Notes under the pieces: generated by a model
What the model was told of the DNA's origin: nothing
The model's database searches: none
What the model saw: the letters and a program-made list of their open reading frames with translations, nothing else
Part shown: in pieces, positions 6,894 through 32,398 of the stretch
Layout: the number at the start of each line of letters is the position of its first letter
Position numbering within the stretch: the first letter of the stretch is position 1
Source: Chitinivorax sp. PXF-14
GTDB taxonomy: Bacteria; Pseudomonadota; Gammaproteobacteria; Burkholderiales; SCOH01
Direction of reading: 5' to 3'
Length of the DNA stretch: 64,000 nt
Assembly (NCBI RefSeq): GCF_040812015.1
Contig: NZ_JBFNXJ010000005.1
Location: 62,001-126,000, forward strand
Position numbers and translations under genes: made by a program

Positions 6894-7234
6894 TACTTGC
6901 GCACCGGCTCGACGACCTCGAACATACCGCGGAAACCAGCCGGGATCACGGCCGCCTCGCCCGGCCCGAACTCGGCGACCAGCCCTGCCTCGTCGTGCAG
7001 CCTGACCCGCCCTTCGATGACACAGAAGAACTCATCCTTGTCATCGGCGAACGCAATACGCCAGCTACCGCGCTCGCATGCCCAGATACCGCAATCGAGC
7101 ACGCCGTTCTGGTAGTGCGTCCACGTCGTGCGCAAGGGGTTGCCCGATACCAGCCGCTCGGCCCTGGGCCGGTCGAAGCTCGGCTCGGGCGGTATCGCGG
7201 ACAGCGAAATGACGGATTTCACCGCCTTCGCCAT
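6863..7234 (-). CDS. Small cupin-domain (DUF861-like) protein
   Basis: A 123-aa single-domain protein. The region GIWACERGSWRIAFADDKDEFFCVIEGRVRL followed by FGPGEAAVIPAGFRGMFEV fits a one-domain cupin of the DUF861/Cupin_3 type, though the canonical metal-binding histidines are poorly conserved. No substrate can be assigned. Its ATG overlaps the metZ stop codon (a GTGATG junction at 7232-7237), so it is translated with metZ and should share its control by the upstream SAM-II element. The start could instead be the adjacent GTG at 7237. Its 3' end overlaps the convergent phosphatase gene. Confidence 0.8.
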   Translation of the reverse strand: MAKAVKSVISLSAIPPEPSFDRPRAERLVSGNPLRTTWTHYQNGVLDCGIWACERGSWRIAFADDKDEFFCVIEGRVRLHDEAGLVAEFGPGEAAVIPAGFRGMFEVVEPVRKYYVIVDRSAA

Positions 7235-8415
7235 CACAAGGCGAGGCCGCGCGCGAGATCGGCCTTCAGGTCTTCGAGCGACTCCAGCCCCACGGCAACA
7301 CGCAGCATGCCGTCAGTAATGCCGGCGGCGGCCCGAGCCTCTGGTGAAATGCGGCCATGGGTGGTGGAAGCTGGATGAGTAATCGTACTCTTCACATCCC
7401 CCAGGTTAGCAGTGATCGAAATCAGTCGGGTCGCGTCGACCACGCGCCAAGCAGCCTCCTTGCCGCCCTTCACCTCGAAGGTGAGAATGCCGCCGCCGGC
7501 ACGCTGCTGCCGCATCGCCAGCTCGTGTTGCGGGTGCGACTCAAGGCCGGGGTAGAACACACGCGACACCTGCGGCTGAGCCTCCAGCCAGCGTGCCAGC
7601 TCCAGCGCATTGCGGCTGTGAGCATCCATGCGCAGCTGCAGCGTCTCCAGCCCCTTGAGGATGACCCAAGCATTGAATGCCGACAGTGTCGGCCCGGCCG
7701 TGCGCAAGAAAGCGAATACCGGCTCCAGCAGCTGGCGCTGACCGAGCACGGCGCCACCGAGCACCCGCCCTTGTCCGTCCAGATACTTGGTCGCGGAATG
7801 GATGACGATGTCCGCCCCCAATTGCAGCGGCTTTTGCAGCGCCGGCGTACAGAAACAGTTGTCGACAGCCAGCAGCGCGCCGTGGCGATGGGCCACAGCG
7901 GCGATCGCGGCGATATCCGCGGTCTCGGTCAGCGGGTTTGACGGCGTTTCGAGGAAGAACAGCTTGGTGTTGGGGCGAACCGCGGCCTCCCAGGCGGCGG
8001 GATCGGACAACTCGACATAGCTTGTTTCGATGCCGAAGCGACTGAAAATCGTGCTGAACAGCTGCACGGTGGAACCGAACAGGCTCTTCGACGAGACGAT
8101 ATGATCACCAGCCGACAACAACCCCATCACGCAACTCGTGATCGCCGCCATGCCGGAGGCCGTCGCTACACAGAATTCCGCCCCTTCGAGCGCTGCCAGG
8201 CGTTCCTGGAAAGCCGTCACGGTCGGGTTGGTGAAACGTGCATAGATGTTGCCGGGCTCCTGGTTACTGAAGCGGGCTGCGGCCTGGGCTGCACTCTCGA
8301 ACACGAAGCTCGACGTCAGGTACATGGCCTCGCTATGCTCGCCAAACTGCGAGCGGTCGATACCGGCGCGTATTGCCAGCGTTTCGGTTTGCCAGTCAGG
8401 GTCGAATGCGGTCAT
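7234..8415 (-). CDS. metZ: O-succinylhomoserine sulfhydrylase MetZ
   Basis: The 393-aa protein belongs to the Cys/Met-metabolism PLP enzymes: YARFTNPTV near residue 60, SGMAA, VDNCFCTP, and the PLP lysine in SATKYLDGQGRVLGG, the pattern typical of MetZ. It makes homocysteine from O-succinylhomoserine and sulfide in methionine synthesis. Cystathionine gamma-synthase is the main alternative, but the DGQGRVLGG pattern favours MetZ. It is transcribed leftward ahead of a cupin gene with a 4-bp type overlap. A SAM-II riboswitch and a terminator lie in its leader, which supports the methionine-pathway call. Confidence 0.93.
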   Translation of the reverse strand: MTAFDPDWQTETLAIRAGIDRSQFGEHSEAMYLTSSFVFESAAQAAARFSNQEPGNIYARFTNPTVTAFQERLAALEGAEFCVATASGMAAITSCVMGLLSAGDHIVSSKSLFGSTVQLFSTIFSRFGIETSYVELSDPAAWEAAVRPNTKLFFLETPSNPLTETADIAAIAAVAHRHGALLAVDNCFCTPALQKPLQLGADIVIHSATKYLDGQGRVLGGAVLGQRQLLEPVFAFLRTAGPTLSAFNAWVILKGLETLQLRMDAHSRNALELARWLEAQPQVSRVFYPGLESHPQHELAMRQQRAGGGILTFEVKGGKEAAWRVVDATRLISITANLGDVKSTITHPASTTHGRISPEARAAAGITDGMLRVAVGLESLEDLKADLARGLAL

Positions 8416-8445: not shown

Positions 8446-8478
8446 AAAAAAACCCGCTTGCAGCAGCTAGCGGGTTTT
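8446..8478 (-). terminator. Intrinsic terminator in the metZ leader (attenuator)
   Basis: On the minus strand a 10-bp stem AAAACCCGCT/AGCGGGTTTT with a 10-nt loop is followed by TTTTTTT. It ends about 30 nt before the metZ ATG and about 22 nt after the SAM-II element. This position suggests premature termination in the metZ leader. It may also stop read-through from purF. Confidence 0.85.
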
Positions 8479-8499
8479 CGTATCGGGTACGGCGAACCA

Positions 8500-8550
8500 C
8501 GATTTAGCTGGATTTATTGAGCGCCCGCAAGCAGTGTCAAATCGGCGCTA
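8500..8550 (-). promoter_or_regulatory. SAM-II riboswitch
   Basis: Minus-strand bases match the SAM-II consensus along its length. The 5-bp P1 stem GCGCC/GGCGC is perfect. The first P1 strand is followed by GATTT-G-AC, the loop ends with TTGC before the second P1 strand, and the 3' tail reads ATAAATCCAGCTAAA against the consensus ATAAAT-x2-AGCTAAA. SAM-II binds S-adenosylmethionine through an H-type pseudoknot and lowers expression of methionine genes. Here it precedes metZ. The family is best known from alphaproteobacteria. The call is from memory of the consensus, not from a covariance-model search. Confidence 0.87.
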
Positions 8551-8606
8551 TGGGCTGATCATCCGCGAATCGAGCGCACGCTGTCAAGCCGCGTCCGAGC
8601 CGGCAA

Positions 8607-10133
8607 TCAGGAGATCAGGTTCTGCTCGGCCACGCCGACGTTGAAGTCGAGGTCACGGTCCTTGTCGGTCTTGGCACTATCGCTGCGCTCCGACTCGATC
8701 TTGTCGAGGTAGGCGTCGTCGATGTCACCCGTAATGTAACGCCCGCTGAAACAGGAGGTCTCGAAGGTCTTGATATCGAAATTGCAGCGGTGCACCGACA
8801 TCTCGAGCGCATCGAGATCCTGGTAGATCACCGCATCGGCGCCGATCTCGCGTGCGATCGCGACATCGTCGCGGCCCGTCGCCAACAGCTCCTTACGTGT
8901 CGGCATGTCGATGCCGTAGACGTTGGGGAAACGCACCGGGGGCGCGGCCGAGGCGAAATACACCTTGGTCGCCCCTGCTTCGCGCGCCATCTGCACGATT
9001 TCCTTCGACGTCGTACCGCGTACGATCGAGTCATCGACGAGCAGCACATTCTTGCCCTTGAATTCGACCGCGATCGGGTTCAGCTTCTGGCGCACCGACT
9101 TCTTGCGCACGGCCTGGCCCGGCATGATGAAGGTACGGCCGATATAGCGGTTCTTCATGAAGCCTTCGCGATAGGGCAGGCCCAGGTGATTTGCCAGCTG
9201 CAGCGCTGCGGCACGGCTCGTATCGGGAATCGGGATCACCACGTCGATATCCATCCCGGGCAGGACGCGGCGCACTTTGTCGGCCAGGAACTCGCCCATG
9301 TAGAGACGCGAGGCGTGGACCGAGATGCCATCGATCACCGAATCGGGACGCGCGAAGTACACGAACTCGAAGATACAGGGTGTGTGGGTTGTCTGCGCGG
9401 CACACTGGCGGGTGAAGACCTCGCCTTCCTGAGTCACGTAGACCGCCTCACCCGGCGCCACATCGCGCACGAGCTGGAAGCCGAGCGATTCGAGCGTGAC
9501 CGATTCCGACGCCAGCATATATTCGCTGCCCGCCGCGGTTTCAGCCTTGCCCAGCACCAGCGGGCGAATGCCGTTGGGGTCGCGGAAGGCGACCAGGCCA
9601 TGCCCGGCAACCATGGCCACAACAGCATAGGCACCGCGAATCCGCTTGTGCACCTCGGCAACCGCGGCGAATACCGCATTCTCGTCGAGGCGACCACCGT
9701 TCGACTGCTTCTGCACTTCATGTGCAAACACATTGAGCAGCACTTCGGAGTCTGAATTGGTATTCACGTGGCGCAGATCGAGCTTGAACATTTCCTGCTT
9801 CAGCTGATCGGCATTGGTCAGGTTGCCGTTGTGGGCCAGCACGATACCGAACGGCGAATTCACGTAGAACGGCTGCGCCTCGGCGAGCGACGACGCCGAG
9901 CCGGCCGTGGGATAGCGCGCATGGCCGATCCCCATATTGCCGTTCAGCGAACGCATATTGCGCGTGCGGAACACGTCACGCACCAAGCCTGAGCCCTTGT
10001 GCATGTGGAAGTGCGGACCGTCGGAGGTCACGATCCCCGCGGCATCCTGGCCACGGTGCTGAAGGGTCAGCAAGCCATCGTAAAGCAACTGGTTGACCGG
10101 AGTCTTTGCGACGACACCAATAATTCCGCACAT
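8607..10133 (-). CDS. purF: Amidophosphoribosyltransferase PurF
   Basis: This 508-aa enzyme makes 5-phosphoribosylamine from PRPP and glutamine, the first committed step of purine synthesis. It starts MCGIIGVV, so Cys2 becomes the N-terminal nucleophile of the glutaminase domain. The GHARYPTAG and LAHNGNLTN segments bind glutamine. The PRPP loop [14 protein letters not shown] lies in the C-terminal phosphoribosyltransferase half. The ATG at 10133 is chosen because Met-Cys must be N-terminal; the longer reading would add two residues. It follows cvpA by 6 bp, the usual cvpA-purF pair. Confidence 0.97.
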
Positions 10134-10139
10134 AATCAC

Positions 10140-32295: not shown

Positions 32296-32398
32296 AAAAA
32301 AAGAGGCGCAACCTTGTGGATTGCGCCAAATTCCACCAAAGAAGGAGGATGGAGGAGACAACACCAAAACACACATTGCGTGTAACGTCTTAGTGTTG
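32296..32398 (-). ncRNA. Candidate small RNA with anti-Shine-Dalgarno motifs, upstream of rplM
   Basis: A complete small transcription unit of about 100 nt is visible. The promoter has TTGCGC (32426-32431), a 16-bp spacer and TATAAT (32404-32409). The 5' end near 32397 can fold by CAACAC/GTGTTG with an inner ACAC/GTGT hairpin. A single-stranded C/U stretch TCTCCTCCATCCTCCTTC follows (32341-32358). A Rho-independent terminator GGCGCAA/TTGCGCC plus TTTTTTT closes it (32296-32327). CCUCC repeats are complementary to ribosome-binding sites, a known way small RNAs block translation. rplM has its own promoter further on, which argues against this being only a leader. Confidence 0.6.

Follow-up and report, generated by a model that had tools for sequence, protein, structure and literature searches.

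A SAM-II leader of metZ that probably acts as an OFF attenuator through a P2-strand antiterminator

Organisation of the metZ locus

The DNA analysed, referred to here as the window, is a 64,000-nucleotide stretch from Chitinivorax sp. PXF-14. On its minus strand purF (8607-10139) is followed downstream by metZ, and transcription towards metZ would pass, in order, a sigma-70-like promoter (8587-8558), a SAM-II aptamer (8549-8498) and an intrinsic terminator (8478-8446) (Table 1). The leader reads, from 5' to 3', P1 AGCGCC, GAUUU, CACUGCUUGCG, GGCGCU, AAUAAAUC, CAGCUAAAUCGUGG, a linker and the terminator AAAACCCGCUAGCUGCUGCAAGCGGGUUUUUUU, which ends at 8446. A promoter scan found one promoter against 0.1 expected by shuffling, and the predicted transcription start, about 8551, coincides with the base of P1. 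The promoter of SAM-II elements likewise lies just before P1 (Corbino et al., 2005; PMC1273637).

The terminator hairpin spans about 8478-8450, and the terminator is separated from the metZ ATG by 30 nt (8445-8416), as a preliminary description of this DNA had stated. The motifs on which that description based its SAM-II assignment, namely P1 AGCGCC/GGCGCT, GATTT and ATAAAT-CC-AGCTAAA (8517-8503), are all present in the sequence on the minus strand. The folding-energy z-score of the whole region (-1.18) is uninformative, as is expected of a structure that contains a pseudoknot. Low-scoring Rfam hits, to the Leu, Trp and Thr leaders and to small sRNAs, coincide with the terminator hairpin; they lie far below their cut-offs and were rejected. 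The sole Rfam match above cut-off in the window is a Betaproteobacteria toxic small RNA (RF02278) at 32298-32360 on the minus strand (53.6 bits).

Table 1. Features of the metZ leader and the gene that follows it; positions are those of the window.
Feature	Position	Strand	Remarks
Sigma-70-like promoter TTGACA-18-GATGAT	8558..8587	minus	10/12 consensus matches
P1 5' strand AGCGCC	8544..8549	minus	pairs with 8520-8525; 4/6 P1 pairs vary on both sides across relatives
L1 core GAUUU	8539..8543	minus	nearly invariant
P2 5' strand CACUGCUUGCG	8526..8536	minus	C8536-A8535-C8534 with G8498-U8499-G8500; U8530-U8529 with A8504-A8505; 87-100% of cells in the P2 helices paired
P1 3' strand GGCGCU	8520..8525	minus	partner of 8544-8549
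P2 3' strand CAGCUAAAUCGUG	8498..8510	minus	includes GCUAAA 8508-8503, ligand-contact segment by homology
Antiterminator 5' side: CAGCUA 8510-8505, CG 8501-8500, GGUU 8498-8495	8495..8510	minus	minimum-energy fold
Antiterminator 3' side: AACC 8476-8473, CG 8472-8471, UAGCUG 8469-8464	8464..8476	minus	overlaps terminator 5' arm
Intrinsic terminator AAAACCCGCU...AGCGGGUUUU with U-tract 8452-8446 (seven T)	8446..8478	minus	hairpin about -16.7 kcal/mol
metZ, O-succinylhomoserine sulfhydrylase, 393 aa, regulated gene	7234..8415, ATG at 8415	minus	NF006003 725.8 bits (cut-off 522); TIGR01325 603.4 bits

Assignment to the SAM-II class

Scoring with the Rfam SAM-II model (RF00521), the check that the preliminary description had proposed, gave a divided answer. 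The alignment covers the whole length of the model and matches GAUUUGAC, GCUUGC and GCUAAA, but its 21.8 bits lie under the gathering score of 36, a curated search threshold rather than a structural feature, so that default Rfam annotation misses the element. Because so low a score could have sunk the SAM-II claim, models were built from relatives. A model of 32 sequences, all from outside the family of the window (R2), scored the site at 60.8 bits (E 1.5e-15) in a cmsearch of the 64-kb window, where the runner-up reached 10.3 bits. A second model (R1), built from 39 beta/gamma sequences with the window included, recovers canonical SAM-II of the alphaproteobacterial type where RF00521 places it too, with 65-88 bits; at one such site R1 gives G598:C1:430635 and RF00521 gives 430628, with 87.7 bits. 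The homology to SAM-II is thus reciprocal, RF00521 matching the element (weakly) and R1 matching the alphaproteobacterial form. RF00521 matches were obtained in 89 of 274 genomes of the class, and in 24 of the 274 they exceed the cut-off.

The conserved segments GAUUU, GCUUGC and GCUAAA are all present, GCUAAA being invariant in 39/39 aligned sequences. Besides the P2 pairs in Table 1, G8528-C8507, C8527-G8508 and G8526-C8510 can form, while P2b is short, with three pairs (CAC/GUG) compared with the longer alphaproteobacterial consensus.

The SAM-II structure of P1 and the P2 pseudoknot (13 pairs) is borne out by the alignments (A2 and A3), in which 96.3% of cells are paired and six pairs vary on both sides. 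These measures were matched by none of 500 shuffles, and slid registers drop to about half or less. P1 is 96-97% paired, with the both-side changes listed in Table 1. The helices of the P2 pseudoknot, in which the P1 loop pairs with the 3' tail, are 84-100% paired with one compensatory pair per part, several core P2 pairs being invariant and so uninformative for covariation. At 8526-8510, where the base after GCUUGC meets the base two before GCUAAA, G-C is replaced by A-U in two distant sequences (L090 and L100); earlier data had led to the prediction that the last loop nucleotide takes part in a Watson-Crick pair (Barrick and Breaker, 2007; PMC2258182). Judged by sequence comparison, the element is a real member of the SAM-II class, in which both P1 and P2 covary.

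Antitermination by the P2 strand

The antiterminator that we favour pairs the 5' arm of the terminator with the P2 3' strand (8510-8505 with 8469-8464, 8501-8500 with 8472-8471, and 8498-8495 with 8476-8473), and it is supported by complementarity beyond that of ordinary terminators. In folding programs that ignore pseudoknots, SAM and co-transcriptional kinetics, it is the minimum-energy structure (-23.9 kcal/mol) of the transcript that ends before the terminator 3' arm, and once that arm is complete the terminator wins (-35.7 vs -29.9). The antiterminator leaves P1 intact and excludes the SAM pocket.

The same pairing recurs among relatives. In 102 elements with a detectable terminator, the pairing of the terminator arm and loop with segments of the aptamer was measured. 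With the P2 3' strand (NGCUAAA+5) the terminator 5' arm reaches a mean of -11.2 kcal/mol, compared with -5.1 for shuffled arms. For unrelated terminators at the same loci (n = 331) the mean is weaker, at -6.6 (p = 3.9e-23). Native arms also bind their own P2 strand better than do arms exchanged between relatives (p = 2.4e-5), a sign of co-evolution. Both p-values are optimistic, since the 102 elements include related sequences. At least four expected arm/P2-strand pairs occur in 94 of the 102 pre-terminator ensembles, against 24% after shuffling. In alphaproteobacterial SAM-II leaders inspected by eye, a terminator arm (for example ACCGGCC) is likewise complementary to the P2 3' strand (for example GGCCGG), the same logic in a different sequence.

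The preliminary description had placed the antiterminator elsewhere, between the P1 3' strand GCUUGCGGG (8532-8524) and CCCGCUAGC (8474-8466), to be removed on SAM binding; in this reading SAM would stabilise P1. The complementarity exists, GCTTGCGGG matching CCCGCTAGC at 8/9 bases, and 1.8% of shuffled arms in the window leader attain its duplex energy of -14.9 kcal/mol; Leyn et al., 2014 (PMC4239095) speculated that GC-rich regions 3 and 4 might be used in a comparable way. However, this fold requires P1 to open, and its energy before the terminator 3' arm is transcribed (-19.2 kcal/mol) lies 4.7 kcal/mol above that of the P2-strand alternative. Across the 102 elements the corresponding segment (GCUUGC with the P1 3' strand) gives -11.81, compared with -11.87 for unrelated terminators (p = 0.56), with native arms nearly equal to swapped ones, and the pairing is dominant in one element. 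On these three tests the pairing was rejected as the main antiterminator, and we consider it unlikely that metZ is controlled in this way. The preliminary description is supported in its SAM-II assignment, its attenuator layout, its choice of metZ as target and its OFF logic, and not in its antiterminator pairing.

Proposed mechanism

Overall, the leader is very probably a SAM-II OFF attenuator of metZ that works through the P2-strand antiterminator. The aptamer homology, the covariation, the terminator and the conserved complementarity between P2 strand and terminator were computed; we infer the OFF direction and the order of co-transcriptional folding. Transcription would begin at the foot of P1, and P1 would fold first and persist with or without SAM. 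At low SAM the nascent 5' arm of the terminator (AACCCGCUAGCUG, 8476-8464) would capture the P2 3' strand (CAGCUA..CG.GGUU, 8510-8495), and the resulting antiterminator hairpin would allow transcription to continue into metZ. At high SAM the ligand would sit between L1 (GAUUU), the GCUUGC strand and GCUAAA and lock the P2 pseudoknot, leaving the terminator 5' arm free for its 3' arm, with a stop at 8446.

Distribution and targets

With model R1 the element was found in 5/5 genomes of the family, three copies being in the source genome, in 228 of 300 sampled genomes of the order, and in 114 of 398 genomes of the phylum, the last figure including SAM-II of the alphaproteobacterial type. The motif lies upstream of metZ in other betaproteobacteria and at many beta/gamma loci, and across the class and order it is carried by leaders of metZ, metX, metK, metF, metH and a metN-like transporter gene, all of these names except metZ being read from translations. 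Taken alone, the window element is ordinary, SAM-II being the rule in its lineage. The preliminary description had thought a SAM-II element outside the alphaproteobacteria worthy of remark, but betaproteobacterial SAM-II was already on record (Barrick and Breaker, 2007; PMC2258182; Meyer et al., 2009; PMC2704228).

SAM-II leaders also precede metK (SAM synthetase, from translation) at four loci (L092, L103, L146 and L148). This gene was without a known methionine regulator in betaproteobacteria according to Leyn et al., 2014 (PMC4239095).

A tandem SAM-II arrangement is present at G000:C15:11885-12079, minus strand (L001). Its first copy has a terminator; the second is divergent (ACUUGC, GAUUUAA), with no terminator detected. 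Downstream of the tandem lies a gene for a 107-aa protein (MFDCYLDESR...) that matches nothing in Pfam or NCBIfam, and after it, in the same direction, a MATE-family transporter. Further genomes of the order repeat this arrangement (L002, L131, L144 and L145). Tandem SAM-II is already known (PMC9481103); the MFDCYLDESR... target does not appear to be named there. In L084, L131 and L144 there is an extra L3 insertion, apparently a hairpin, between P1 and GCUAAA, and the consensus of the Rfam family RF02424, read in reverse, has the same; the insertion may explain why RF00521 misses Burkholderia copies. It is conceivable, though we put little weight on it, that the beta/gamma elements form a distinct SAM-II subclass with a common P2-strand antiterminator, a ligand preference or affinity of its own, and a divergent second version used in tandem before a conserved 110-aa protein and the MATE transporter.

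Relation to described elements

The window element shares with SAM-II (SAM_alpha, RF00521; PMC1273637) P1, GAUUU, GCUUGC, GCUAAA, the P2 pseudoknot, a near-consensus promoter just before P1, a terminator between P2 and the gene, and a target in methionine synthesis. It differs in its shorter P2b, in L3 (AAUAAAUCC) and in its score below the cut-off. Terminators with SAM-II have been described (Corbino et al., 2005; PMC1273637), in both alpha- and betaproteobacteria (Barrick and Breaker, 2007; PMC2258182). A known parallel is the metZ switch of Sinorhizobium meliloti, one of two studied with that of metA (Scheuer et al., 2022; PMC9373788), in which an aptamer and then a terminator also precede metZ and a transcriptional OFF switch is predicted; its sequence is alphaproteobacterial, and a Northern blot revealed its terminated sRNA.

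Leyn et al., 2014 (PMC4239095) listed, separately from SAM_alpha, a 'novel' metXZ element that most betaproteobacteria carry ahead of metX or metZ. To judge by text, taxon, target and described anatomy, the window element is apparently this metXZ element. The two have in common the betaproteobacterial host, the targets, a pseudoknot, a downstream terminator and a proposed antitermination, and differ in that the metXZ element was assigned no ligand and was not recognised as SAM-II. Its target is metZ in Methylophilales, Nitrosospira and Thiobacillus, and metZ is also the target at L024, L029 and L042.

We infer that SAM is the ligand. The segments bearing the SAM-contact nucleotides of the SAM-II/SAM-V crystal structures, with contacts taken here from the SAM-V paper (PMC6061858), are conserved in the window, with a putative residue-by-residue mapping. 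L1 is the third strand of the SAM pocket in these structures, a role that it would have here by homology (PMC6061858). The score under the RF00521 cut-off, the shorter P2b and the listing of the element as novel, apart from SAM_alpha (PMC4239095), might suggest a SAM-II relative with a different ligand (e.g. SAH or methionine) and in its own class. Such a ligand is nevertheless very improbable, as the matched contact segments include the uridines that lie close to the sulfonium and give SAM its advantage over SAH (PMC6061858), the models match reciprocally, and the targets metZ, metX, metK, metF and metH fit SAM feedback. SAM-V has the same logic of a pseudoknot with a SAM pocket, but it is translational, acting at the ribosome-binding site without a terminator. 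As a candidate it was rejected, given the terminator in the leader and no SAM-V family match to the leader at E up to 10 in the Rfam scan.

Bp2_287 (RF02424; Khoo et al., 2012; PMC3521395), reported beside methionine genes as Bp2_Cand287 in that Burkholderia study, shares sites with the element and adjoins methionine genes, but is modelled as an sRNA on the opposite strand. In G555:C2, for example, the R1 match lies at 701158-701217 on the plus strand and RF02424 at 701125-701297 on the minus strand; further RF02424 sites are G525:C12:118211-118387, G392:C1:260553-260755 and G000:C15:11967-12103. RF02424 is thus the opposite strand of SAM-II (metXZ) leaders, and its strand or classification deserves a check. 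A constitutive terminator with a conserved leader-derived small RNA and no switch, as suggested for Bp2_287, would accord with the accumulation of terminated SAM-II leaders as sRNAs in Sinorhizobium (PMC9373788) and with the RF02424 match on the opposite strand, but it is very improbable, since the conserved, lineage-matched complementarity of terminator and P2 strand and the fixed place before methionine genes fit a cis switch, and RF02424 is the antisense strand at the same place.

Significance

In the open-licence literature we found no paper that equates the metXZ element, SAM-II and RF02424. Most copies of this betaproteobacterial element are hidden by the Rfam cut-off, and one Rfam 'sRNA' family is their antisense strand. 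The analysis adds a corrected pairing for the antiterminator and connects the element with metXZ and RF02424. It offers a precise antiterminator for a riboswitch class whose effects on expression were called not yet studied in 2022 (PMC9373788), and by present evidence the metXZ element, left without a ligand in 2014, is a SAM-II riboswitch across most betaproteobacteria.
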